Origin: Planococcus sp. 107-1
GTDB taxonomy: Bacteria; Bacillota; Bacilli; Bacillales_A; Planococcaceae
Direction: 5' to 3'
DNA: 64,000 nt
Assembly (NCBI RefSeq): GCF_021513255.1
Contig: NZ_CP090977.1
Span: forward strand, 2,914,001 to 2,978,000
Shown: in pieces, positions 3,923-22,498 of the stretch
Layout: each line of letters opens with the position of its first letter
How positions within the stretch are numbered: the stretch's first letter is position 1
The notes under the pieces: model-generated
Seen by the model: only the letters and a program-made list of their open reading frames with translations
Told to the model about the DNA's origin: nothing
Databases searched by the model: none
Program-made: the position numbers and the translations under genes

Positions 3923-5027
3923 TTAAGTTGAGTATGGCGCTTTCTGATAGAAGTAATTAGGCTTCACTTTGTCGTTCTTATACGGCTTATGGAAAATATG
4001 CGTTGTGGCCGGTGACATCGGCGGAATGAGCCAAGCCCAATTGCCAGTAACATCGCGTCCAGCTCCCGCCTCTTTTTTTCTCAAAGCTGCTAAACTGCTT
4101 AGCAGCTGTGTGATGATCCACAATTGTTACGCCCGCCTCATTGAAAGACTCTAAGACTGCGACATTCAATTCGACAAGCGCCCGGTCTTTCCAGAGCGTC
4201 CGGTTCGAGCTTGTATCCGCACCGATTGCTTCTGCTACTGCCGGCAATAAATCATAGCGGTCTTCATCAGCCAAATTCCGCGCCCCGATTTCGGTTCCCA
4301 TATACCAGCCATTGAAAGGTGCCATTGTATAATGGATGCCGCCGATTTCAAGCTTCATTTCGGAAATGATCGGAACAGCATACCATTTAGCATCCAGCTC
4401 TTTAAATCCTTCAAAATCAGGATGCGTAATTTCGACTTCCATCACGGACTCTTCCGGCAACTCGAAATAGCGCGGTTCTTGCCCTTTTACTTGAATCACA
4501 ATCGGGAGAATATCAAAATGGGTCCCTTCGCCTTCCCAGCCCAATTGTTCGCATTGCTTCGTGAATTCGATCGAACTGGAGTCTCCAACCACTTTTCCAT
4601 CTTTTTCATAGCCGGCATAGCGGATCAATTGATGATTCCAGATGCGCATCTCATCTTCTCCATCATGTGCAGCCGGAAAGACCGTAATTGCCGGGCGGAT
4701 TTTCCCTTTATTCGTCGCAAAATCAATATGGTTAACGAGGGCTTCAAATGCGCCTTCAGCTGTTTTTTGTCCGCGTTCATCAAAAACCGTCAATGAATTC
4801 CAAAATAGCCGGCCGATGCAGCGGTTGTTGTTGCGCCATGCCATCTTCGCTCCATGCTCTAATTCTTCGAACGTATGGTGATAGGTTCCTGTCGCTTCAA
4901 TTTCCTTGGTTACAGCCTCTAGTCGATCTTCCAGCTCTTGCTCGTTTTTTTCAAGCTCGGTGTAGCAAATCACTAGAAAATCAGCCGCTTCTTCTAGCAA
5001 AGCATCCCTTGTCTCAATTGCCTTCAC
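3923..5027 (-). CDS. nos: Nitric oxide synthase oxygenase, frameshifted as sequenced
   Basis: Bacterial NO synthase makes NO from L-arginine using a heme-thiolate centre and pterin, borrowing electrons from cellular reductases. The heme-ligand cysteine is in [14 protein letters not shown] (about residue 70), and the substrate-site segment [20 protein letters not shown] is intact. As read, the frame runs off after SSFEKK into an unrelated tail ending at 3987. The true C-terminus ([20 protein letters not shown] to [10 protein letters not shown]) is present in the next frame and ends at 3923. The switch lies in a run of seven T at 4073-4079; six would restore a protein of about 367 residues, normal for the family. 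GTG at 5027 has the best-placed GGAG; 5033 (ATG) is an alternative. No reductase domain is fused. Confidence 0.9.
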
Positions 5028-5154
5028 GTACATCACTCCTTAGTTTCATCATAACACCTCGCCGCTCATATCATAAATGATAGCTCTTTGTTTTTAGGCG
5101 TGGATGCAGTAGACTTGAAATAGTTTGAAAATATAAATTAAGGAGATTCCATCC

Positions 5155-8777: not shown

Positions 8778-9040
8778 GCAAAAAAGGCCCTCCTCCCCTC
8801 ACATATAAATGCAAGGGGCGAAGAGCCTTTCGATTCGCGGTACCACCCTAATTCACTGTCTATTAATAGACAGTCTCATTGGTCAAATGCGTAACGGGCA
8901 CGAGCCGGATGGACCTACTCAAGTTCAATCCATCTATTCAGGAGTGCTGCCATAAGCCGGAAACGCTGATTTTCACCACCCATCAGCTCTCTTCAGATTC
9001 CTCTGCCCATACCGTATCTCCATCAACATAGTTAAGTTAT
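8778..9040 (-). promoter_or_regulatory. T-box riboswitch leader of the aminotransferase-serA operon
   Basis: On the minus strand the hallmark T-box sequence AGGGTGGTACCGCG is at 8849-8836, followed by a strong terminator hairpin (AAGGCTCTTCGCCCC... GGGGAGGAGGGCCTTTTTT) at about 8832-8778. Upstream is stem I with GAGAGCTGATGG and GGTGGTGAAAATCAGC. A UCC triplet at 8943-8941 in CACUCCUGAA sits where a specifier codon is expected and would read serine; this assignment is from position and the serA context, not from a folded model. Uncharged tRNA binding should favour the antiterminator and switch the operon on. Confidence 0.9.
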
Positions 9041-9191: not shown

Positions 9192-9232
9192 AACCCGGAA
9201 AGCAAAATGGATTTTGCTTTCCGGGCTTTCTT
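9192..9232 (-). terminator. Terminator of the Ter operon
   Basis: Perfect 15-base-pair stem (CCCGGAAAGCAAAAT) with a two-base gap, and T runs following on the minus strand. It lies after the last terD gene. The plus-strand side also has T-rich sequence. Confidence 0.9.
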
Positions 9233-9252: not shown

Positions 9253-9830
9253 TTAAGCTAAACCGAAGTCATTTACCAATGCAGCTAATCCGCCTTGGTA
9301 GCCGCTGCCGATCGCGTTGAATTTCCATTCACCGCCGTGGCGATATAATTCACCCACGACTAGAGCTGTTTCAATAGAGAAATCTTCTCCTAAGTCGTAG
9401 CGTAAAATTTCTTCATTTGTGCTTTCGTTCATAATACGGATAAATGCATTCGATACTTGTCCGAAGTTTTGTCCGCGGCTGTCCGCTTCGTGGATAGTAA
9501 CTGTAAAGACCACTTTATGGATGTCAGCTGGCACATTCGGCAAGTCGACGATCACTTGCTCATCGTCTCCCTCCCCTTCACCAGTCAAGTTGTCGCCAGT
9601 GTGGGTAACCGAACCATTTCCTCCAACAAGGTTGTTATAGAAGATGAAATCTTCCGGTCCGCGGATTTTCCGTTTTCCCCAACAAGGAAAATCGATGCGT
9701 CCAAGTCAAAATCTCCACCGCCGCTGTATTTGTTCGTGTCCCATCCTAAACCGACGAGAACTTTCGTTAACCCTGGATTTGTTTTTGTTAAGTCAATCTT
9801 TTGCCCTTTTGATAAGTTGATCGATGACAT
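9253..9830 (-). CDS. terD: TerD family stress protein, frameshifted as sequenced
   Basis: Two overlapping open frames (9830-9585 and 9588-9253) together make one TerD. The first gives [20 protein letters not shown] to [11 protein letters not shown] and the second continues from [19 protein letters not shown] to the end. The correct joining sequence [20 protein letters not shown] is present out of frame between them. A single missing C/G near 9659-9660 explains the break; restoring it gives 192 residues, identical in length to the intact paralogue at 17048-17626. TerD proteins bind calcium through acidic DFDLD and EGDDE motifs and belong to tellurite, phage and envelope stress clusters. This is the last gene of the operon. 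Confidence 0.85.
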
Positions 9831-9856
9831 AATAATTTCCTCCTCCGGCTGATTAA

Positions 9857-10935
9857 TTAAGCTTTGCGTTGTGTATCTTCGTATTTCTTTTGAAGCTCTG
9901 CTATGCGAAGGCGCCCTTCTTCACGCATCTTGCGGTTTTCCGCTTCGATTTCGCGTGTATCGTTCATCCCTTGCATAATTGTTTCCCACGTCTGTTCAAT
10001 TGTCTCAATTTTGATGCTTGGTTGTCCAGACATACGGGCAATATCGACGCTTTGGCGCGAGATATCGTTCGCATTATTCAATAGCATTTCATTTGTCCGG
10101 CGATCCAGTTCATTCATACCTTCCGCTACCAAGCTTTGGCGTTTCGCAGCAATTGCGTTGATCAGGCCGGTTTTAAAAATCGGAATCGTCGTTACAAAAG
10201 CAGAATTGATTTTCCCGATCAATTTCGTATTGCCGCGCTGCAGCATACGGATTTGAGGAGCCGATTGATACGATACTTGTTTCGCCATCTCCAAATCGTA
10301 AACTCGCTGTTCCAGCAACTCAATTGCGTTTTGAAGAGAATTCAGCTCCATTAAGGCCATTTGGTTGCCGCTTTCAGCTTTTGCGCGGACTTCCGGCTCT
10401 TGGGCTTTCAATTCCTGGACTTTCAAATCGCCTGCTGCGATATACTTTTCCAGTTCCATGAAATAGTTGAAGTTCTGGTCGTATAATTCTTCCAAAGTGG
10501 TCGTCGATTTTTTCATTTCCGACTCGTATTTGGTGATTTCTACGTACACTTTATCGATTTCAGTTCCCATTGTCTGGTACTTGCTGAACAATTGCTCGAT
10601 CATCTTATTGCCTTTGTTGAAGATCTTGTTCAAGAAGCCCTTCTTTTCAACAAAGTCCTTTTTATCGAATTTGTCCATGATCTTTCCGAGTTGCTTTAAC
10701 AGTTCACTGGATTCTTCCATGCTGTTCGCTTGGACAGAATTCAACACTTTTCCAGTGAATGCTGAAATTTCGTTTGCCGGTTCGCGCCCGAATTCCAATA
10801 GCTCAATTTGATTTTTCGGGTTGATGGAAGAAGCCAATTTAACGACTTCCGGGTCTTGCTTCAACTTCACTTTCAACTCGTTTTCATTTTGCATAAGGGA
10901 TTCCTGCTGGTCAATTTGCTGCGGCAATGTATTCA
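9857..10935 (-). CDS. TelA-family toxic anion resistance protein (YceH-like)
   Basis: About 359 residues, matching the TelA/KlaA/YceH family (PF05816). It is predicted to be almost wholly helical and partly coiled coil, with the conserved stretch [20 protein letters not shown] and [23 protein letters not shown] at 10935 is preferred because GGAG lies eight bases upstream; GTG at 10945 is too close. The family is found beside TerD genes in many Firmicutes; the biochemical role is not established. It lies 21 bases after yceG and 26 bases before the last terD. Confidence 0.9.
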
Positions 10936-10956
10936 TCTTCTTCACTCCTTTTTAGG

Positions 10957-12570
10957 TCATAGCCATTTTTTAAAAATTTTCTTCACGACCGATGGTTCTC
11001 GGTAAGGTTCATTAAAGCTTCTTTCGTCCAGCCAATGCGTATCGATAGCTTCCGTGTCGATCCAGCGTTCGATATCCTGATGGCCTTGCGGGTTTATCAT
11101 GATCACGTCAAGGCCGAATGTATGGATAAGCGCGATGGCGTTGGCATCTGCACGGCTTAATTCCGCATCCTTCTCTTCATTATAGAACAAAAGAGTCGGC
11201 ACAAACTGAGGATAATCAAATAACTGGATCAATTGAATAACCGAATCCGGAAGCGACATCGATTGTGAAAATAGGTATAACTGAAGATCTTCAAACGACT
11301 CTCCTGTTTGCGGAGTCAACATCGGCTTTTCTACATGCCGTGCAATCGCCTCGCATAAAGCAGTTTGCACACCTTCAGGCAAGCGGCTGTATTTCCACCA
11401 ATTAGCCGTTTTCATTTTTTCGGGATCCAGTCTTCCGTTCTTATCCAATGCAGCACGGTAATGAAATAGCTGATTCCCTTTCCGTTCTTCTATGAACGGG
11501 AAGCTTCGGATCAATAATGTATCTTCACGTTCTGTCAAATTGTGGATATTGTCCCAAAAGCGCTTTCGATCTTTTTCTATGCCCATTATTTTAGCAAATA
11601 CTACGGGAATGATAACGCTTCCCCGCTCGACCCCAAAAGACGGCCGGACCATTGCACGTTCTTTGGCGAGCATGAAGGCTTCATCAATGGTCGTTTTCAA
11701 GCGAATCGAGCGAGTCGAGTACGATTTGAACTGAAAAGGCTTATATAAGCCTGAGTCGTCATGGTGCAATAAACGATCCACTTCCTGTGTTGCGCGAAAA
11801 GCGACTGTTCCGACGCGTTCCGGCTTTTCTTCTGGAAATTGCACCACTTTATCACTCGTCACCTGGAAGCTATGGCTTAGAAGATCTTGGCCTCCTACCG
11901 CATCGGCCAGCCAATGCTTGCCTTCAGGGTCATAAGCAATGATATGGAATCCGAACGCTGCAGAAAATTTCAGGAACCATTTTTCACTCTCAGACATATC
12001 GGCATACCATAAAAAAGCAGGCAAACCTTTTTCCAGATTTAACTTTTCAAGTTCCGGCTCAATGTGGTTGAATGTCCATTTTACTAAATCCGTCGCTACT
12101 CGCCGGAAAGAAGAATGCGTGGTGGCAGCCGCTGAGTGGGTTTGGAATTCTTTGAGGATATCAATCAACACCAGGCGCAGCCGGCGATTTAAGCCGGGAT
12201 CTTTCAACTTCGGCATGAGCCCTTTGCCATCTAAAAATGCGACAATCCGGCTTGGCGACAGGCCATTTTCTTTCTTATTCATTTCAAACAAATCTTGCAG
12301 GCTGCGCAGCCTTTCGGAGGAAATTTGTTTATTCAGTTTCCCTGATAAGCGGATCAGCCGTCCTTCCGCCGCTTCCATGACATCATAAATACCAGCAAAA
12401 TAATCGTCTTCGTCCAAGGACATACCGACGAATTCACCGATAAGCTGCGGATAGGTCAGGCTATCCTCTTCTATTTTTGTTTCTGGATGACTGATGATGG
12501 GCTTATTCAGCCACTCCCCAATCTTTTCCGGATCCCACGTTCTCACGCGTACCGGATGCAGTTGAACCAT
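10957..12570 (-). CDS. YceG-like Ter-cluster protein
   Basis: A 537-residue cytoplasmic protein that matches YceG of the Bacillus yceC-H cluster in size and position (between a HAD gene and the TelA gene). No signal peptide or membrane helix is seen. The centre contains a Lys/Arg and aromatic-rich segment (ERDEDTLLIRSFPF-like, near residue 370) and the C-terminus has VIMINPQGHQDIERWIDTEA. AGGAGGGA precedes the ATG at 12570. Function is not known; the family (DUF, PF14266) travels with TerD and TelA. The operon context is the main clue. Confidence 0.85.
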   Translation of the reverse strand: MVQLHPVRVRTWDPEKIGEWLNKPIISHPETKIEEDSLTYPQLIGEFVGMSLDEDDYFAGIYDVMEAAEGRLIRLSGKLNKQISSERLRSLQDLFEMNKKENGLSPSRIVAFLDGKGLMPKLKDPGLNRRLRLVLIDILKEFQTHSAAATTHSSFRRVATDLVKWTFNHIEPELEKLNLEKGLPAFLWYADMSESEKWFLKFSAAFGFHIIAYDPEGKHWLADAVGGQDLLSHSFQVTSDKVVQFPEEKPERVGTVAFRATQEVDRLLHHDDSGLYKPFQFKSYSTRSIRLKTTIDEAFMLAKERAMVRPSFGVERGSVIIPVVFAKIMGIEKDRKRFWDNIHNLTEREDTLLIRSFPFIEERKGNQLFHYRAALDKNGRLDPEKMKTANWWKYSRLPEGVQTALCEAIARHVEKPMLTPQTGESFEDLQLYLFSQSMSLPDSVIQLIQLFDYPQFVPTLLFYNEEKDAELSRADANAIALIHTFGLDVIMINPQGHQDIERWIDTEAIDTHWLDERSFNEPYREPSVVKKIFKKWL

Positions 12571-12586
12571 GGGAATCCCTCCTACA

Positions 12587-13402
12587 TTATTTATGCTGCA
12601 AAGTTTCTTGCTTCACGCGGAAAAGTATTTCTTCTCCCGCTTTTATCCCTTGTTTTTCGGTAATTTCAATATGCGCTGAAACAGGCACCCGGCTTTTTAC
12701 TGCTTCGCCGTGGGCAGCCAATAGTCCAAGGTCTGCACTTTCAAGCAAATCGAGATCCAGAAGTGAATCTCCAGCTGCCACAACATAGTCAGCGCCGAGA
12801 CGCTCTTTTACATATTGCATAGCTCCTGCTTTTGTAATGCTTTCAGGCATGAAATAAAGTTTTCTTCCCTGGAGCGACATCGACCAGCCGATTTCACGGA
12901 AAGTCTTTGTATAAAAACCCAATTTATCGTCCGGAAATTTTTCACGGTCAATAATCAAGTAGACGAACCATCCGTCTGCTTCTCTCACGCGCAGAACCCA
13001 GTCTTCCGAGAAATGCTGATCAATTTTTGGCAAAAGCTCTTCGACAATGGTTTTCTTGCTGACGCATTGTTTTCGGATGTGATCTGACCATTCTTTGATC
13101 GGTTCGCCGTCTTCCAAAATGACGGCACCGTTAGAAATGACAGCGAATTTCGGCGCCTCATTTCCTTTATAGATGCCGGTAACGCGTTCATACTGACTCT
13201 GCGTCCGAGTCGTGACAGGCAAGAAGAAAAGTTCTTCCGTTAACTCATGAAGCGTTTGTTGGCTCGTTTCCGTCATGAAGGACTGCGGGTTGCCTTCAAA
13301 GCGTTCAACTTCCCGCAAATCGGATTCCGCCACCTGTTCTCCCATGGACCTCTTCGAATAGATTAATGTCTGGTCTAAGTCACTGGCAAATAGGATCGTC
13401 AT
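12587..13402 (-). CDS. HAD family phosphatase of the Ter operon
   Basis: A 271-residue Cof-like HAD protein. Motif I is FASDLDQTLIY (nucleophile Asp about residue 8), motif II is LPVTTRTQSQ, a lysine lies in SITKAGAM, and motif IV is VVAAGDSLLDLDLLESAD. A C2-type cap lies between residues 85 and 190. It overlaps the upstream StiP gene by an ATGA. In this operon type the enzyme is proposed to remove a phosphate from the product of the phosphoribosyltransferase-like proteins. That step is inference from context. Confidence 0.9.
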   Translation of the reverse strand: MTILFASDLDQTLIYSKRSMGEQVAESDLREVERFEGNPQSFMTETSQQTLHELTEELFFLPVTTRTQSQYERVTGIYKGNEAPKFAVISNGAVILEDGEPIKEWSDHIRKQCVSKKTIVEELLPKIDQHFSEDWVLRVREADGWFVYLIIDREKFPDDKLGFYTKTFREIGWSMSLQGRKLYFMPESITKAGAMQYVKERLGADYVVAAGDSLLDLDLLESADLGLLAAHGEAVKSRVPVSAHIEITEKQGIKAGEEILFRVKQETLQHK

Positions 13403-14508
13403 ATTTCTTTTCCTGACTTGATCAATCCAATTGAACGATAGAATAATTCAGGGACAACTTCAACAGGCACATTTTTCTCTTTAGCTAAAATCAGCAAGTG
13501 TTGGACGTCTGGATGTTCTAAGTCATTCACTAACACTTTCCAAGGGCTTCTGCGCAATAGTACACGTGTCGTTTCGCCGACACCTGGCTTGATCAAGTGG
13601 TAATCCGTTTCACTATACATTTTCGCGCCAATTTCTTCCACTTCCTTCATTCCTTGCCACGTTCTTTCGGCAGTCACCGGAGTGGATAAAACTTCTTTTT
13701 CAACCGCCTCGGAAGTTAGATGGAAACAAGCAGTTACTTCATCTACAAAATTATTGGATAAGTCTTCTGCCACTAATTCCTCGTAAAATTTAGCGCCGTG
13801 AAAATCATCTTCCCCAATATAGCGTTCGTTTAAAATGGTGCGGCTGACAAGACCGGAAACCGTTGAATTCAAGCAAGCACTTGGAATCAGAAAATCTTCC
13901 CGCGTTCCAAATAGCACGGCACAGGCGCCCGGATCGGCTAAAACTGCCATATCATCATGTAAATTCCAATCTTCCCGGCTATTCAACAAATCAACGGATT
14001 TCGTCAACTCTTTTTGAATGGCCCCTTTGCCAGTCCATCCGTCTATAAATTGAATGCGGCTTTCAGGATGCGCCTTACGGATGGTTTCGATCGCTTTTTC
14101 ATCAATGCCTTTATCCCGAAGAATCGAAACGCTGTAATGCGGCCAGTTCAATCCGAGTATTTGTTCCGCATACCGGCGAATCAAAATGCCGATCGGACTT
14201 CCGGCCCGCGCCAGCGATACGAGCACGACATCCTCAGTTTGTGCATTTAGCAAGATGCGCCGAGATACTACTCCCACCAGATGGCTAAGGCGCTCTTTAG
14301 TTGTCTCAACAGTTGCATGGTAGAGTTCTGTATATTCCTGAGATGGCTGATATTCCATAGGCAGACGCTCCGCGTAATGCGCTCCAGTGCGGACGGCATT
14401 TTCACGTTCTTCTAAGGTGCTTTCCTCGAAATCAGCTGTGACATCTTTCAATAAAAATGTGATATCTTCTTTCGGATAACTGGTTCTCACTAATCCCGTA
14501 GCAATCAT
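13399..14508 (-). CDS. StiP-family phosphoribosyltransferase-like protein with PELOTA domain
   Basis: About 369 residues. The first 270 residues resemble the PRTase_1/StiP family (PF11202), with LVSLARAGSPIGILIRRYAE near residue 100 and IQFIDGWTGKGAIQKEL near residue 150. The C-terminus (RVLLRRSPWKVLVND, then HLLILAKEKNVPVEVVP) has the look of the PELOTA/L7Ae-like RNA-binding domain reported for this family. Databases call it cysteine protease StiP, but the fold expectation is a PRTase. Start at 14508 overlaps the previous stop in ATGA and follows GGAGG. Longer upstream frames are only overlap. The substrate is unknown. Confidence 0.85.
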   Translation of the reverse strand: MIATGLVRTSYPKEDITFLLKDVTADFEESTLEERENAVRTGAHYAERLPMEYQPSQEYTELYHATVETTKERLSHLVGVVSRRILLNAQTEDVVLVSLARAGSPIGILIRRYAEQILGLNWPHYSVSILRDKGIDEKAIETIRKAHPESRIQFIDGWTGKGAIQKELTKSVDLLNSREDWNLHDDMAVLADPGACAVLFGTREDFLIPSACLNSTVSGLVSRTILNERYIGEDDFHGAKFYEELVAEDLSNNFVDEVTACFHLTSEAVEKEVLSTPVTAERTWQGMKEVEEIGAKMYSETDYHLIKPGVGETTRVLLRRSPWKVLVNDLEHPDVQHLLILAKEKNVPVEVVPELFYRSIGLIKSGKEI

Positions 14509-15875
14509 TGAGTGGAATTCCTCCTTTTGGCTGCCGTCAATGAAATCCATTCGACTGGCGCTTTCTTCTCCAAATAACTGATTAACGGACTCCATGCCGC
14601 TGGATCTGAAACAGATTCGGCCAGCAGGTAAATCCGGTCAACATCCAATCCGTTCAAATTATAGATAAACTGGTTTACTCCGTCTGCATCCGGCAGTTGG
14701 AAACTCGCTTTCTCGCGAATCGGATAGCCCTCTTTAGTCGAAGCGAAAATCGGGCTTCTTGTGGTCGTTTGGACAATCGAATCGTCGCTAAGCGCAAGCC
14801 CGAACCGGAGCGCCAAGTACATATTTTCGCCTATGCCCACCACTAAAGGTTTTTTGGCTTTTTGCTCAAGTTTCTCGACTGTATTCGATGCCCAGCTGTC
14901 GATTGCCTTTTGCTCTTCGCTCGACAGTCCGAATCTTCCAGTCAATCCTATGTATCGCTGCCCTGTAGAAGATTCATAAGGAAGCATGTCTGCTTCAGCA
15001 ATCTCCTGTGGCTGATTGGGCACACCGCCTGCTAATTGTTCGATTGCCGGTTCCTCAGGAGAAGAACCGTGATTCAATTCGAACTGCCCGGCCATCAAGG
15101 ACAACACTGCTAGTTCAATTTTTCGTTCCTTAGCCAATTGGCCGAACTTCTTCTGCTGTTCCTCATTGCGCCAATCCAAAATAGAAAGGGAGGTATACTT
15201 TTTGCCTGGAAACTGCTCGTCCAAAGCCGTGATTAAATTAATCAGTGTGTTGCCGGTTGAAATTTCATCATCGATTAGAACGATCGCTTCTGCGTCTTCC
15301 AACAGCCCTTTGGGCGCATACACTTTATGCGATGTAGCATGTGAATGCTCTTCCTCAAAAACAAATGATGGCGTCAAACCGCTAATATTTTCCCTGGTCG
15401 TATGGATATAAAAAGCATTCTCAAAATGCTGAAAGACGGAATGCCCGAGTCCAGTAGCCGTTTCTGCCATTCCAATAAATACGGTTTTCTCCGGCAACGC
15501 TGCCATATGCCGAAGCGAGTCTTTAGTAGCCGCCGGATTCGGCGCCCCGCTTTTCAAAATCCGCACAAGCTCTGAAGATTGAGGAACTTTGGGAAGCCCT
15601 TCTTTTTCCATCAATAAAGAAGCCAACAAGCTGCCGGTCCCCAGTGCAACAGACGGAGACACAGCAAGGTGCTTGGCTATCAGTTTGCTGATAAAAAGGA
15701 ACTGGCGTTTCTTATTGACCCGAAGGCCCATTGAAAAAAGTGCTTCTGCCGACAAGCCCTGATAGGCCTCGCGGACTGTCACAGCCAGATCCAGATGCTG
15801 CCACAATTTATAATTGAGTTGATAATTGGTTTGATCGAATGTGGTTGAGGACATCGATTGGTTTAAAGTTTTCAT
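14505..15875 (-). CDS. Phosphoribosyltransferase with TRSP domain
   Basis: A 456-residue protein. The N-terminal half is a PRTase fold with the PRPP-binding motif AIVLIDDEISTGNTLINL near residue 205 and an upstream TGLGHSVFQ loop. The C-terminal half contains IVQTTTRSPIFAS, the signature that names the TRSP domain. These are the PRTase_2 and TRSP families of Ter-linked biosynthetic modules. ATG at 15875 follows GGGGTG and overlaps the lyase gene by 68 bases. The presumed reaction is transfer of phosphoribose to a base-like acceptor; neither acceptor nor product is known. Confidence 0.88.
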   Translation of the reverse strand: MKTLNQSMSSTTFDQTNYQLNYKLWQHLDLAVTVREAYQGLSAEALFSMGLRVNKKRQFLFISKLIAKHLAVSPSVALGTGSLLASLLMEKEGLPKVPQSSELVRILKSGAPNPAATKDSLRHMAALPEKTVFIGMAETATGLGHSVFQHFENAFYIHTTRENISGLTPSFVFEEEHSHATSHKVYAPKGLLEDAEAIVLIDDEISTGNTLINLITALDEQFPGKKYTSLSILDWRNEEQQKKFGQLAKERKIELAVLSLMAGQFELNHGSSPEEPAIEQLAGGVPNQPQEIAEADMLPYESSTGQRYIGLTGRFGLSSEEQKAIDSWASNTVEKLEQKAKKPLVVGIGENMYLALRFGLALSDDSIVQTTTRSPIFASTKEGYPIREKASFQLPDADGVNQFIYNLNGLDVDRIYLLAESVSDPAAWSPLISYLEKKAPVEWISLTAAKRRNSTQ

Positions 15876-16953
15876 TCAGCACCCCATAGACTTCCGCCTG
15901 GGCGGCAATTTTCCTTGCCCAGCTTAAATGCGGTTTTACTTCATTCATTTTATTGCGTGTCGGACTTTGCAGGATCCCATTGAATTTGCCGCTTTCTGCA
16001 AGAATCAGGGATGCGTCGTCGTAAGTTTCCTTTGTAACAATATATCCTGCATTTACAGTCATGATTTGGGACGGATGGATGCAAGTCTTTCCTTTAAAGC
16101 CGTTTAAAACGTCCAGTTGCACTTCTTCCCATAAAACTTTTTCAGCTTCTGAGGCTACAAATGGAAATTGGACGGTCGAAAAGTGCTCGTATACAGGACC
16201 AGAAACGGTAAACCCGTCTTCTGCCCGCCCAAACTGATTGAGGATATCCACTAGACAATCTCGGACCACATGAACATCGTATATAGTGCGTTCGACTGGA
16301 CGCCGCAGGCCATAAAGGCTGGAAAAATCTGTAGCTCCGACGCGCACTGTCAGAATGCGATCCGCTTCCTCTTTCAAAATCCCATAAATTTCCTTTAAAG
16401 TTTGCTGTCTCGTTTCCTTATAAAGGACTTCTTTTGTCTCAAGGAGCGGCAAAGCGTATAAATTGCGCCCTGCTGCTTCACTTGCCCGATCGAGCGCCTG
16501 GAAAAAAGCGCGAAGGTTTTCAGTGTCGCATTTCGGAAAAACGATTCCAGTCAAAACACCGAGTGTTTTCCCTGCAGCAGCAATCAGTGCATCCAGCTGA
16601 GCTGCACTGCGGATCCGCAAAAAAAGTGCCGGACTCCCAGCAAGCTGGTATGGATTTGCTGCATGGAGACGTTTCAACTGGTCTGCCACATTCTTTTCAG
16701 CTTCAGGCAATTCCGAATCGGCTACAGCATCTTCTAAACAAATGATTAAAGTGGCTAATCCTGAGAATGCTCCCCGGCTGTAGTTCCCAGCCAGTATTTT
16801 CGTAGCGATATCTCGTCTGGAACCTGGCGTATAAAGAGCTGCACCCAATGCAAGCCCCAATGTTTCCCTTGCCGTATCACGGGAGAACTCTGTCGGGGAA
16901 TATTTAAAAAACGCTTTTAAATCCGAATTAGTCAATACGTCGAAATGTTTCAT
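15808..16953 (-). CDS. HpcH/HpaI aldolase/citrate lyase-like protein
   Basis: A 381-residue member of the CitE/HpcH TIM-barrel family. LYTPGSRRDIATKIL near residue 40, the acidic metal-binding stretch LIICLEDAVADSELPEAE near residue 70, and KTCIHPSQIMTVNAGY near residue 300 are family motifs. ATG at 16953 follows GGGAGGA; codons further upstream have no better site. CitE-like enzymes make or break C-C bonds in acyl-CoA or keto acid substrates using Mg2+. In Ter operons this family is the usual partner of the two PRTase-like proteins. The true substrate is not known. Confidence 0.88.
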   Translation of the reverse strand: MKHFDVLTNSDLKAFFKYSPTEFSRDTARETLGLALGAALYTPGSRRDIATKILAGNYSRGAFSGLATLIICLEDAVADSELPEAEKNVADQLKRLHAANPYQLAGSPALFLRIRSAAQLDALIAAAGKTLGVLTGIVFPKCDTENLRAFFQALDRASEAAGRNLYALPLLETKEVLYKETRQQTLKEIYGILKEEADRILTVRVGATDFSSLYGLRRPVERTIYDVHVVRDCLVDILNQFGRAEDGFTVSGPVYEHFSTVQFPFVASEAEKVLWEEVQLDVLNGFKGKTCIHPSQIMTVNAGYIVTKETYDDASLILAESGKFNGILQSPTRNKMNEVKPHLSWARKIAAQAEVYGVLNENFKPIDVLNHIRSNQLSTQL

Positions 16954-17001
16954 CTTCCGTCCTCCCGGCACAATTAAACAAATAAATTTTAATCGAGTCT
17001 A

Positions 17002-17037
17002 AAAAAGCAAGGAGACGACTGGCCCCTTGCTTTCTAC
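17002..17037 (-). terminator. Internal terminator or attenuator in the Ter operon
   Basis: On the minus strand AAGCAAGGGGCC ... CTCCTTGCTTTTTT forms a GC-rich hairpin with a T run. It lies between the second terD and the lyase gene. No good promoter is visible in the 45 bases after it, so partial read-through would set the ratio of TerD proteins to the enzymes. Confidence 0.7.
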
Positions 17038-17047
17038 TTGTGCAAAA

Positions 17048-17626
17048 TCAGCTATCTAAACCAAAGTCTTTAACAAGTGATGCTAGTCCACCTTGATAAC
17101 CGCTGCCAATCGCATTAAATTTCCATTCTGCTCCGTGGCGGTAAAGCTCCCCTACGACGATTGCCGTCTCGATAGAGAAATCTTCGCCTAAGTCATAACG
17201 GATCAGCTCTTCGTTAGATCCAGCATTCACAATGCGTACGTATGAATTGCTGACTTGGCCGAAGTTTTGGCCGCGTGCTTCTGCGTCATGGATAGTGATA
17301 GCGAATGAGACTTTTTCAATAGAAGAAGGAATAGCAGAAAGATCGATGTTCACCGCTTCATCGTCCCCTTCGCCTTCTCCGGTTTTGTTGTCTCCAGTAT
17401 GCTCTACAGCACCGCCAGCGCCGATTGTATTGTTGTAGAAAATAAAATCAGCCTCTGAAGCTGCTTTGCCGCTTGCATCTAATAAGAATACGGATGAATC
17501 CAAATCGAAATCCTGTCCGCCGTCGTATTTATTTGTATCCCATCCAAGGCCAACTACCACTTTAGATAGTCCTGGATTTGATTTTGTTAAGTCTACTTTT
17601 TGTCCTTTTGATAAGTTAATAGCCAT
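17048..17626 (-). CDS. terD: TerD family stress protein (YceD-like)
   Basis: A 192-residue intact TerD. It begins [20 protein letters not shown] and carries the acidic calcium-binding segments [11 protein letters not shown] (about residue 40) and [19 protein letters not shown] (about residue 80), then [27 protein letters not shown] overlaps the end of the upstream gene, 15 bases away, so the two terD genes are translated from one message. TerD proteins are soluble beta-rich proteins of metal, phage and envelope stress clusters, thought to act as calcium-dependent scaffolds. Confidence 0.95.
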
Positions 17627-17641
17627 TTACTCGTCCACTCC

Positions 17642-18256
17642 TTAAGCGTATTTGTTTGCAATTGAACTAATGTCTGCGTCTGTTGTGCCTTCACCGACTG
17701 CTGAGAATTTCCACTCGCTGCCTTGGCGGTACAACTCGCCAGGAATCAATGACATTTTACCTGCGTAGTTTTCTGTTAAATTGTAATGCACCAATTCTTC
17801 TTTTGACTGATTATCCACTAAACGGATGAAAGCATTTTGGATCATGCCGAAATCTTGCTTTTTCTGTTTTGCGTTGTAGATATTTACAACGAAAACCAGA
17901 CGGTGAATAGAAGGGGAGATTTTTTTAAGGTCGATGTTGATCGTCTCATCGTCCCCTTCACCTTCTCCAGTCAAGTTATCGCCCGAATGGACAACGCTGC
18001 CGTCCTTGCTTTTTTTGTTGCCGAAGTAAATCAGGTTTTCTTTGCCTTTCAGTTTGCCATTTTCGTCCAGCATGATGACAGATGCGTCACAGTCAACGTC
18101 TGCTCCGCCGCCACCGCCGCCAAGCAATCCACTTAGGAAACCGCCGCTTTTTTTCGTTTCAACAGGGTCCCAGCCGAGGCCGACCATGATGCTCGAAAGA
18201 CCTGCACGCCCTTTTGTCAAATCGATTTTCTGACCTTTTACAAGATTAATAGCCAT
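17642..18256 (-). CDS. TerD family stress protein with Gly-rich insert (YceC-like)
   Basis: A 204-residue TerD, first gene of the operon. After MVGLGWDPVETKKS it has a short Gly-rich insert (GGFLSGLLGGGGGG) before the metal-site stretch DVDCDASVIML, where other TerD proteins of this cluster run straight on. It also keeps [19 protein letters not shown]. The insert and the Cys in DVDCD match the YceC subtype. ATG at 18256 has GGAGAG eight bases upstream; GTG at 18265 is too close to that site. Confidence 0.93.
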   Translation of the reverse strand: MAINLVKGQKIDLTKGRAGLSSIMVGLGWDPVETKKSGGFLSGLLGGGGGGADVDCDASVIMLDENGKLKGKENLIYFGNKKSKDGSVVHSGDNLTGEGEGDDETINIDLKKISPSIHRLVFVVNIYNAKQKKQDFGMIQNAFIRLVDNQSKEELVHYNLTENYAGKMSLIPGELYRQGSEWKFSAVGEGTTDADISSIANKYA

Positions 18257-18324: not shown

Positions 18325-18572
18325 TTATTAAGGGTCATTGCACAGCTACGATGAATTCTTTCCGCCTTATAATTGACAACACTTGCTGATAGCCGCGCAA
18401 AACTTTAAAAATAGCTGATAGAATATACTACGTTTGTAAATGGAATAAGTTTCATTTCTAAAATTATTCTGTAAAGCTTTTGTGGAAAGAAAAATGCAAG
18501 CATATTTTTAAAGCGGGGAAGGGTAAACAGAATCATAGAGAAATACGATACATACTGAAAGGGGAATGCGAT

Positions 18573-19915: not shown

Positions 19916-22498
19916 ATGCGCAGTCGTTTCTTCAATCTGTATTTATTGTCCGGCAGCTTCTTTTTAGCGTTCGTTGCTCATGCGGTCTTTTTTTTCAATG
20001 GACACGCAGCCACTTTATGGTCGGCATCGATGACGGCAGTTCGCAGATGCTTCCTTTCAAAAAGTTATTGTATGACCAGTACACTTCCGGGGAATTTTTC
20101 TATTCTTTCGATTTCGGACTAGGAGCCGGAACGTTCAGCGAGCTTTCCTATTACTTCTCGACATCCATTGTCTTTTTGATAAGCGTCTTTATTGTTTTTC
20201 TGCTTGAAACGATCGGCCTTATCCAGTCCGCTGATATTCTGTTTTGGGCAAATGCCGCTGTCTTTATCAGCATCGTCCGCCTCACTTTTATTTTGTTCAT
20301 TGTGACGAGGCTGTTTATGTATATGAAAATCCCATGGATTTCGGCTTTGCTTGGCGCCTCTATCTACGGCATATCGGGCATGTATTTCCGCCATACGGTA
20401 TACTGGGAGTTTTTTGCAGACGCCTTTCTCTGGCTGCCTTTATTAATATTGGGAATCGAGAAGGTTTTCCGTGAACAGAAACCTGGCTGGTTTTTGCTGG
20501 CTGTTTCAATTTCCATGATCGATAATTTTTATTTTTCGTATATTAACTTTTTTGTTAGCTGCGATTTATATCGCAGTTCGGTTATTCATCCCGCTTTCAG
20601 CTGGAGAGTCAAAACGCTTACACGCTTTATGGACGTTCCTTTGGGCTGGTTTGCTTGGTTTTGGCATCAGTGCTGTTTCTTTCATACCAGCGGTTTATGC
20701 ATTTTTAAATAACCATCGCCCTGCTTTTGAACAGGAAATCGCTCGGTTGGACTTTACCGATAATATTCTATTTACAAGCCGCTATATTGTGCTGCCGGCA
20801 ATTTTTGTTTTGATGTTATTTATGTGGCGCCTTTACCGAAACCGGACATTCCGTTTGTTTGCGATTCTTGCGGCAATCGGTATCCTTCTTCATTTCAGTC
20901 CATTAGCGGCCAGTATATTCAATGGCTTTTCAGCCCCTCAATTCCGGTGGGAATATTTTCTTTCCCTGATGGTTGGTGGTGCAATTGCTGTGGGGCTTCG
21001 TGAATTGCCTAATATTACAGGAAGGCAATTTTTAGCCGCTTCTCTTATCACGTTATTCCTATTCGTCTATACGGGTATTGCAGACGAACTTTTCGAATGG
21101 CAATCATTATCCACAACCCTTGTATTCATAAGCCTTTTGATAAGCTTACTTTTCAGCTACTCCCTCATCAAATGGAAATCTGTCCGGATTCGAAATGCCT
21201 TTATCGCCTTTCTCCTGGTTTTTCTCCTCGGCTTTGCAAACCTCTATCAAGTCGAGAAGTTGCTTGAAACCGGACGAATTGGGCAAGTGAATGAAGAATT
21301 ATTGACCGGATCCGAATATGACGATGCTGAAATCAGGGAGCTTCTGGCTCAAATTGACAATCAGGAACCAAGCGGATATTATCGCATCGAATGGATGGAA
21401 GGTGTGAGGAATAATACGCCTATTGTCCAGGACTTCCGCGGATTGAGTGCTTATTCCAGCATCCTCAATAAAAATCTGCTGTACTTTTATCTATATGATT
21501 TGGAAATCGACATGGGCCGCGAAAGTGTCAGCCGCTATGCAACACTCGGCAAACGCACCAACCTTTACAGCCTGCTTCAAGGAAAATACATCATTTTGCC
21601 AAAAGACGACAGCAACATCCCTTATGGATTTACTGAAGCTTTTTCTTCTGACCATTACACGGTTTATGAAAACCCATTTGTCCTTCCTTTCGCCCGCACA
21701 GCTTCTGCCGTTTATCAAGAGCAGCAACTGGCAGACGCTCCAATATTAATGCGTGAACATGCCATGCTGGCTGGCGTCGTACTTGATGGCACTGGCGGGC
21801 AAGATGAATTACCGGAAATCCAGAACAAGGCGGATAGATTCGAAATAGTCGAAGCTGATGCTCTTTATGAAGATGGCGTTCTGGAAATTACAGCGGATGA
21901 AGGCGGATTGGATTTCATCCGGAAGAATTCTGCCTTTACGGATGGCGACTTGTACATCTCGTTCCATCTGGAAAATTTTGCAGCTTCGTCCGGATTCCCA
22001 TTAAAAATCAACGATTATTACACTACGCGGAAAGCAAATGACTCCATTTACCGGACCTATGTGGATGATTTGACCATCCGTACTGAAGCGGCGGAAAAAA
22101 TATCTTTACGTCTTCCGAAAGGAAGCTATGCATTAAGTGATATTGAGATTTACGAAGAGCCATACGATCTATTAAAAAAGCAAACAGAAAAAGAATCAGG
22201 TCTAAGCCAACTCGACATTGATGGCAGTTCAGTTGAAATGGTATACGAAAATCAAGAAGAAGCACCCTATTTAACGACTGCCATTCCTTTTGAAAGAGGT
22301 TGGCGTGCTGAAGTCAATGGAAAAGAAGTCAATGTATTAAAAGCCAATTACGCTTTTGCGGCAGTGCCTCTTGAAAAAGGAAGAAACGAGATTTCGTTTA
22401 GCTATCGCCCTCCATTCTTTAAGGCTTCACTGATTGTATCCGTGCTGTCTTTAGCCGCCAGCCTGTTTCTTTTATTCGGCCGCAAAAGGCGCCCCTAA
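19916..22498 (+). CDS. yfhO: YfhO family membrane glycosyltransferase, two frameshifts as sequenced
   Basis: Three consecutive frames make one protein. Frame one gives MRSRFFNLYLLSGSFFLAF; frame two continues FMVGIDDGSSQMLPFKKLLY; frame three continues LLAAIYIAVRLFIPLSAGE to the end. The breaks are in T runs: eight T at 19988-19995 (nine restores frame) and six T at 20548-20553 (five restores frame). The corrected protein is 860 residues, the expected size for YfhO. It has an N-terminal multi-helix membrane part, a large extracytoplasmic domain (about residues 470-820) and a final helix. YfhO is a GT-C-type enzyme that moves a lipid-linked sugar onto a cell-surface acceptor such as lipoteichoic acid. 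Confidence 0.88.

Follow-up and report, generated by a model that had tools for sequence, protein, structure and literature searches.

An operon of Planococcus sp. 107-1 combines genes for TerD and TelA proteins with genes for a lyase, two proteins of the phosphoribosyltransferase (PRTase) kind and a phosphatase, and it raises the question of what such enzymes contribute to a stress response. Our preferred answer, to which we assign a probability of roughly 0.58, is a Ter stress operon of known kind, located on the chromosome and switched on through a sigma-W-type factor, in which a response arm is accompanied by a quartet of proteins forming one biosynthetic unit, whose product would signal to the arm or be used by it. 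Anantharaman, Iyer and Aravind reportedly proposed in 2012 that Ter operons with a biosynthetic module make a nucleoside-like metabolite, and several of the Pfam families in the operon take their names from this Ter-module setting. The operon belongs to the kind proposed then, so its architecture is not new, and the nucleoside proposal is prior work. It shares TerD, TelA, YceG, the C-C bond lyase (CCL), PRTase_2-TRSP, StiP-PELOTA and HAD proteins with the 2012 operons, but differs from them in having no TerC, TerB or Ter ATP-grasp gene.

Gene layout and the split third TerD

The nine genes read on the minus strand from 18256 to 9253 of the window (the whole stretch of 64,000 nucleotides that was analysed), in the order of Table 1, within a genome close to that of Planococcus ruber. 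A sequence-only reading had given the strand, gene order and outer coordinates correctly, and all nine of its domain assignments were borne out by Pfam, the scores of the HAD protein being modest yet above the cut-off. The adjacency of the quartet, with TerD and TelA/YceG in the same operon, also supports its placing of the operon among those that join Ter genes to a biosynthetic module.

Table 1. Features of the Ter operon and its flanks, in window coordinates.
Feature	Position	Strand	Evidence
ECF sigma (sigma-W-type) promoter TGAAAC-N16-CGTA	18429..18454	-	strict motif match
TerD (first)	17642..18256	-	PF02342, 246 bits
TerD (second)	17048..17626	-	PF02342, 278 bits
CitE-like C-C bond lyase (CCL)	15808..16971	-	C-C_Bond_Lyase PF15617, 355 bits
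PRTase_2 + TRSP protein	14505..15875	-	PF15609, 212 bits; PF12500, 99 bits
StiP + PELOTA_1 protein, likely start 14508	13399..14508	-	PF11202, 337 bits; PF15608, 105 bits
HAD phosphatase (type IIB / Cof-like)	12587..13402	-	Pfam Hydrolase_3, 28 bits; S6PP, 23 bits
YceG protein, two tandem YceG domains	10957..12570	-	PF14266 YceG_bac, 242 bits, two stretches
TelA	9857..10945	-	PF05816, 347 bits
Third TerD, split between two frames	9253..9830	-	Pfam TerD pieces, 66 + 171 bits
Intrinsic terminator-like hairpin 3' of operon	9194..9225	-	14-pair stem; T run on minus strand

GGAGAG precedes the start codon (ATG, at 18256) of the first TerD gene, and the longest StiP-PELOTA frame begins at 14595. ATGA overlaps, previously described along the operon, occur at only two of the eight junctions: StiP/HAD, at 13402, and, provided that 14508 is the start of StiP, TRSP/StiP. 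Elsewhere, the CCL and TRSP genes share up to 68 bases, and at five junctions the genes are separated by spacers of 11-76 bases.

All nine domains of the supposed nine-gene operon are present, but the ninth gene is not intact, so that two whole TerD genes are accompanied by one that is divided between frames at 9830-9585 and 9588-9253, with a junction near 9660-9669. Its P. ruber orthologue (locus L082) is a single frame of 192 aa. The same kind of split affects two further genes, one YfhO-like (near 20540) and the other nitric-oxide-synthase-like (near 4080), bringing to 3 of 18 the P. ruber frames (at least 120 aa, matching the window) that are split in the source genome. Since three of 18 genes common to both genomes are divided here, the split in the third TerD likely represents, on this comparison of frames, a sequencing or assembly error, and biological decay of the last TerD is disfavoured on the same count.

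Distribution of the quartet

We identified CCL, TRSP, StiP and HAD genes as a block in fixed order in 89 of the 96 StiP-bearing loci, eight of these in fused form; the other seven are without the fixed quartet, three of them being cut by a contig end. Of 299 genomes from the same phylum, 17 contain StiP, and precisely these 17 contain PRTase_2 above the cut-off; every one of them carries TerD (found in 20/299 overall), indicating that the operon association is not due to chance. A CCL match above 300 bits was found in 16 of these 17 genomes. On three proteobacterial plasmids the PRTase, a middle gene, StiP and a PF15617 lyase lie in a different order; Pfam identifies the middle gene as HAD on one plasmid, scores it below cut-off on another and gives it no match on the third. 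TRSP and StiP are divergent in genome G173, which has no CCL match, and no CCL was found in the neighbourhood of loci L156 and L177. A StiP relative is present on 2,567 of 72,556 plasmid records, mostly enterobacterial.

TelA adjoins YceG in 50 of 59 YceG-bearing loci, and this pair, present in the operon, is frequent but not universal among Ter module loci. Clusters of TerC and of the Ter-type ATP-grasp, each with one member checked by Pfam, occur in 40 and 11 of 100 loci, respectively, the latter also in an Aromatoleum locus. Because most neighbour loci are without one or both, we counted these genes as optional and not as defining. The source genome has two TerC genes outside the operon; a dedicated Ter ATP-grasp copy was not found genome-wide, the best match (29.9 bits) falling inside a 1070-aa frame. 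Compared with an anti-phage defence library, eight operon proteins (the split TerD omitted) gave a single weak PRTase match (PDLC02935, 20 bits), and in the NCBIfam scan the lyase and HAD proteins alone were matched, both below cut-off.

The pFI430 ter locus of Lactococcus cremoris MG1363 likewise carries a lyase, PRTase, StiP, a further gene, YceG, TelA and three TerD genes successively; unlike the Planococcus operon, it is plasmid-borne, has its TerD genes last and shows no Pfam match for the gene in the HAD position. The Ter cluster of Acinetobacter phage vB_AbaM_ME3, described in an excerpt of PMC7824862, shares adjacent PRTase, HAD and StiP-type genes, but has no annotated lyase within the 17 kb inspected.

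We additionally identified nine loci (e.g. L107) in which TRSP-PRTase and StiP-PELOTA form one protein. This fusion requires at minimum six label changes on the tree, at least three of which are forced by supported branches; the fusion counts, like those of the promoter given below, are not independent, as related loci share common ancestry. Neither the fusion nor the promoter of this operon was found described in the CC-licensed papers searched; the 2012 paper may mention fusions.

Catalytic residues and the nature of StiP

Loss of catalytic residues, named by the sequence-only reading as grounds for doubt, was not seen, and such residues are kept in the lyase, the TRSP-PRTase and the HAD protein. 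E178 and D215 of the CCL are invariant (90 sequences), and profile comparison relates it to the citrate and malyl-CoA lyases (best E 3e-7). The canonical PRPP motif consists of two acids and T-G, and is present in the TRSP-PRTase as IDDEISTGNT, of which D203, E204 and T207 are invariant in 96 sequences and G208 is kept in at least 93%. This protein weakly matches APRT of known structure (E 0.046), and its profile is weakly similar to that of APRT (E 0.002, probability 14%) and more weakly to that of OPRT (E 0.023, probability 2%). The catalytic motifs of HAD proteins (DxD, Thr, Lys and GD..D) are complete, with D8, D10, T64, K191, D212 and D216 invariant in 88/88. For YceG, a fair model (pLDDT 87.7, pTM 0.57) found no credible match in the PDB (best E 4.8e-4, but TM 0.15 and rmsd 23), and a sequence search against solved structures found no match.

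The StiP domain is predicted to adopt a PRTase fold. Its model (pLDDT 87.9, with most of residues 1-31 in the long frame below 50) has PRTases as 48 of its top 50 PDB matches, and every one of the 29 matches at E 0.001 or better has this fold, with PyrR at the top and HGPRT also matched. StiP resembles these type I PRTases in its modelled fold, but differs in its extra L7Ae-like domain and in its PRPP loop, which, in a weak profile alignment, is two residues shorter than that of PyrR (DGWTGKG against DDVLYTGRT) and has one acid. As the loop is non-canonical, catalysis by StiP is only putative. The earlier claim of two PRTase folds is upheld for the TRSP protein by its PRTase signature and for StiP by the predicted fold, but StiP is without the canonical PRPP motif. 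The profiles of StiP and PyrR resemble each other weakly (hhalign probability 14%, E 0.002), and profile comparisons gave no real alignment of StiP with the HPRT of the source genome and no PRTase alignment with the TRSP-PRTase.

Both Pfam PF11202 and most of the annotated plasmid records listed name StiP a cysteine protease, and among 97 sequences, mostly from Bacillota, all but one retain C241 and all but one retain H266. It is nevertheless very improbable that StiP is such a protease and the operon a protease-controlled stress response: C241 is replaced in six of 11 sequences (by I or V in all five from proteobacteria or phage, by H in L178), no cysteine column in that 11-sequence alignment is 90% conserved, and the PDB matches at E 0.001 or better are all of PRTase fold, with no protease among the top 50. 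Among the CC-licensed papers searched, one uses the name cysteine protease StiP, none brings StiP under that label together with TerD, and one, on ETEC, mentions the TRSP domain, PELOTA RNA or PRTase_2.

A less likely reading is that StiP-PELOTA, rather than being a metabolic PRTase, acts on RNA as an enzyme or is a regulator like PyrR, in which a PRTase-fold ligand sensor is joined to an L7Ae-like domain on structured RNA; the quartet would then make the ligand, and StiP would read it or act on the RNA. PyrR, which heads the PDB matches, is itself an RNA-binding PRTase, and the 11-sequence StiP profile reaches it, not significantly (E 0.082). The weak profile alignment with PyrR puts LAVLIDRGHRELPIRADF on MAVLADPGACAVLFGTREDFL, and the shortened loop with one acid is likewise consistent with a regulator. 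The PELOTA domain aligns to L7Ae (GTNETTK opposite GIGETTR), and its E341 and R344 are invariant. The K-turn contact motif of L7Ae is NExxK, of which GETTR retains the E and the K/R with N replaced by G. The domain from which an RNA target was suggested earlier is an L7Ae relative, and the target itself is a conjecture. Against a regulator, D185 and R130 of StiP are invariant in 97/97, as in a working site, and an enzyme would fit both the place in the operon and the fusion with a canonical PRTase. Moreover, the only RNA element that Rfam detected at gathering thresholds in positions 1-26000 of the window is a T-box ahead of the next operon.

Promoter and proposed function

Apart from the sigma-W-type motif ahead of the operon, the 64 kb contain no strict match, and 0.08 would be expected in shuffles; genome-wide there are 43 matches against 23 for a reversed control, and a lone match thus proves little. 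Among Bacilli loci, 50 of 177 module heads are preceded by the motif, compared with 2 of 551 other ORFs, and the motif heads the operon in 41 of 59 loci. It is missing from the remaining 18 and from all 40 other loci, indicating that sigma-W control is outside the module core. The source genome contains a sigW orthologue (313 bits against a cut-off of 243), which is also preceded by the motif. In Bacillus subtilis, the yceCDEFGH genes include those of TerD, YceG and TelA; the control genome of this species gave matches for YceG and TerD but, unlike the Planococcus operon, represents the response arm alone, as it is not one of the control genomes matched by StiP, PRTase_2 or CCL. These genes are under sigma-W, yceC-yceH being listed as a secondary sigma-W operon in an excerpt of PMC3498285. 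We infer that sigma-W may drive the operon here.

A role mainly in metal or tellurite resistance, in which the enzymes detoxify or chelate and there is no signalling nucleoside, seems quite unlikely. The TerD and TelA families are present, and terZ-F supplied in trans made Escherichia coli MG1655 resistant to tellurite, but that resistance, in the excerpt of PMC8115787 that reports it, came without the biosynthetic cluster. Furthermore, none of the four quartet proteins has a metal-handling domain by Pfam, and the promoter belongs to the envelope-stress type. Given such a promoter, tellurite is probably not the best assay condition for the operon, and is less apt than envelope stress.

In the biosynthetic reading that we prefer, a sigma-W-type ECF sigma factor would switch the operon on under cell-envelope stress. 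The TerD proteins, which are metal-binding, and TelA with YceG would make up a membrane-associated response arm, and CCL, TRSP-PRTase, StiP-PELOTA and HAD would act as a single biosynthetic unit. The lyase would supply or trim a carbon-skeleton acceptor, the PRTase pair, acting as one complex, would use PRPP to give a ribotide-like product, and the HAD protein would remove phosphate from it; the product may then signal to the response arm or be used by it, and the L7Ae-like domain may tie StiP to structured RNA. The order from acceptor to phosphoribose to phosphate removal, as put forward by the sequence-only reading, is plausible. We infer the contact between the two PRTase proteins, and likewise the individual reactions, the compound that they yield and the RNA bound by StiP.

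The module is widespread on plasmids, and the protease label of StiP is contradicted by fold and conservation. The fusion means that TRSP-PRTase and StiP should be assayed together, and the promoter tells when to look for the metabolite; between them, they make a guess from comparative genomics directly testable, in Planococcus or in L. cremoris MG1363. A bolder proposal, which we consider unlikely, is that TRSP-PRTase and StiP-PELOTA together make a two-headed phosphoribosyltransferase, equipped with an RNA-binding domain of the L7Ae type, which under sigma-W envelope stress would build a modified ribotide and deliver it to, or install it on, a K-turn-like RNA. If true, this would be a stress-induced RNA-modifying or RNA-sensing system with a chemistry not yet described.

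Operon layout and the split third TerD

The nine-gene, one-strand Ter operon proposed in the sequence-only reading was found by Pfam domains with the same gene order and outer coordinates (see table), in a source genome consisting of a single 3.5 Mb contig. Its closest named relative is that of Planococcus ruber (StiP identity 96%). The YceG protein contains two YceG domains, and the operon is followed by a hairpin of 14 pairs and a T run. ATGA overlaps, previously ascribed to the junctions in general, occur in the coordinates at two of them; at one other the genes overlap by at most 68 bases, and at the remaining five they are 11 to 76 bases apart. The StiP gene probably starts at 14508, because the 29 extra residues of an alternative frame from 14595 are poorly modelled (pLDDT mostly under 50) and are absent from the P. 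halocryophilus frame.

The third TerD is present as the ninth gene, in two frames rather than intact. Among P. ruber frames of 120 aa or longer, 18 match the window, 3 of them on split genes; besides TerD, these are a YfhO-like and a nitric-oxide-synthase-like gene. No window gene was matched by two P. ruber frames, TerD paralogues aside. Sequencing error is the simpler reading of the TerD split, given the completeness of 94.3% and contamination of 4.1% reported for this single contig, and true decay is a less simple possibility. Separately, a T-box leader precedes an aminotransferase-like and a serA-like gene.

Features of the operon and its surroundings, in window coordinates
Feature	Position	Strand	Remarks
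YfhO-like membrane protein gene	20017-22498	+	split near 20540; single frame in P. ruber
Sigma-W-type motif, TGAAAC-N16-CGTA	18454-18429	-	sole strict match in window; 0.08 expected
Sigma-70-like site	18324-18296		weak site; such sites near shuffle level
TerD, TerD, CCL (CitE-like C-C bond lyase), PRTase_2+TRSP, StiP+PELOTA, HAD, YceG, TelA, TerD	18256-9253	-	nine genes, in this order
Third TerD	split near 9665	-	one P. ruber frame on two window frames
T-box leader	8811-9035	-	106 bits
Nitric-oxide-synthase-like gene	3926-5036	-	split near 4080; single frame in P. ruber

Conservation and fusion of the central four genes

The CCL, TRSP-PRTase, StiP-PELOTA and HAD genes form a unit. We compared 100 loci, comprising 80 named loci (the best 80 of 177 in one StiP scan) and 20 further genome stretches, a partly redundant set in which two loci have identical StiP. 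Among the 96 that bear StiP, 81 retain the four genes in fixed order and eight have them as CCL, fused TRSP-StiP and HAD; of the remaining seven, three are ended by a contig edge (L106, L135, L150) and four are real exceptions (L156, L167, L177, L178). Across the phylum (299 genomes, completeness floor 90%), StiP and above-cut-off PRTase_2 occur in an identical set of 17 genomes, all of which are included in the 20 with TerD. CCL exceeds 300 bits in 17 genomes (16 with StiP), and YceG occurs in 13 (11 with StiP). Weaker hits, probably to other PRTases and lyases, were not counted: PRTase_2 fell below cut-off in a further 58 genomes, and CCL scored under 70 bits in a further 39.

In one genome the quartet is divided, with CCL-TRSP and StiP-HAD (L167 and L168) about 1 Mb apart. 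L178 has TerD and a cation-ATPase-cluster gene next to a TRSP-StiP pair that has diverged strongly (StiP 23% identical), with neither CCL nor a recognised HAD at the locus and no Pfam match to PELOTA in its StiP. L156, from Desulfonema magnum (Thermodesulfobacteriota), has a fused TRSP-StiP with HAD; CCL and TerD were not found within the 21 kb.

Single frames joining TRSP-PRTase to StiP-PELOTA, of 782 to 839 residues, were identified in nine loci (L099, L107, L108, L109, L113, L115, L136, L144, L156), and all four domains were found in that of L107, the one scanned with Pfam. The fusion requires a minimum of six changes on the StiP tree, at least three of them forced by well-supported branches, with gains indistinguishable from losses. 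The existence of this natural fusion suggests that the separate Planococcus proteins may act as a complex.

Relatives are also carried on plasmids. In Aromatoleum, Azospirillum and Halomonas the order is PRTase, middle gene, StiP and lyase, unlike that of the window, with an ATP-grasp gene preceding the row in Aromatoleum. The lyases of all three match PF15617 (238 to 326 bits). Pfam assigns the middle gene to HAD in Aromatoleum, scores it below cut-off in Azospirillum and gives it no match in Halomonas. The first three genes of this proteobacterial row recur on a Rhizobium plasmid; a Streptomyces plasmid has StiP without the other quartet genes, and a Brevibacillus plasmid has lyase, PRTase and StiP, with HAD not annotated next. 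Plasmid pFI430 of L. cremoris MG1363 carries almost the same gene set as the window, although the gene at its HAD position has no Pfam match.

Predicted folds of StiP and PELOTA

The StiP model (pLDDT 87.9, pTM 0.88, 67 sequences) matches PyrR and HGPRT in the PDB. All 29 matches with E of 0.001 or less are PRTases, as are 48 of the top 50, the other two being PLP enzymes; TM-scores by target length are moderate (maximum 0.57). The modelled domain has a PRTase fold, not that of a protease, and is a candidate enzyme. A cysteine protease, as StiP is named in Pfam and plasmid records, was considered and is disfavoured on these PDB matches and on the replacement of C241. All 97 StiP sequences aligned share D185, G186, W187, T188, G189, G191 and R130, and 96 of them retain C241. 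A broader set of 11 includes five proteobacterial or phage sequences; these five have I or V in place of C241 and L178 has H, while D185, W187, G191, R130 and G132 stay, making the protease name doubtful. The putative PRPP loop, DGWTGKG, is unusual, with a two-residue gap against DDVLYTGRT of the PyrR encoded in this genome in a weak profile alignment (E 0.002, probability 14%); TRSP-PRTase has the canonical motif IDDEISTGNT.

The PELOTA domain had been taken to hint at an RNA target. By profile it matches L7Ae with a best E of 2.5e-4 (11-sequence set) or 0.0093 (67-sequence set), and GIGETTR aligns over GTNETTK. E341 and R344, invariant in both StiP sets, occupy the E and K positions of the K-turn contact motif, and N is replaced by G; RNA binding is likely.

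The sigma-W-type promoter and the standing of the operon

The sigma-W-type motif lies about 175 bases ahead of the first TerD ATG. In loci assigned to Bacilli from record titles and kinship, it was found within 450 bases upstream of 50 of 177 module heads, by a crude rule under which 49 heads are internal TRSP starts without the motif, versus 2 of 551 other ORFs. It is present in 41 of these 59 Bacilli loci and at no head in 40 other loci; P. chinensis and P. glaciei have no strict match at the head. Many loci in which YceG and TelA make up a separate unit carry a second copy in front of it. A search of the genome for sigW gave an orthologue at 313 bits, against a cut-off of 243, and the motif starts 64 bases ahead of this match. 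Genome-wide there are 43 strict matches versus 23 for a reversed control, so about half may be chance; these sites (e.g. G000:C1:77417-77442) provide a first-draft Planococcus ECF regulon. The sigma-70-like site could be a second promoter.

The proposal of a nucleoside-like product reportedly dates from 2012. It is cited in PMC7824862, PMC8115787 and PMC6225704, the first of which restates it as a nucleotide signal produced by PRTases and HAD enzymes. Other papers describe B. subtilis yceC-yceH as a secondary sigma-W operon (PMC3498285) and increased TerD synthesis under metronidazole in C. difficile (PMC6262375). Evidence against a simple resistance role for the quartet comes from E. coli MG1655, where terZ-F supplied in trans was enough for tellurite resistance (PMC8115787). 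The operon is an ordinary member of a known Ter kind with predicted biochemistry; the natural fusion, the StiP PRTase fold and the sigma-W-type promoter are three additions by which it becomes testable.
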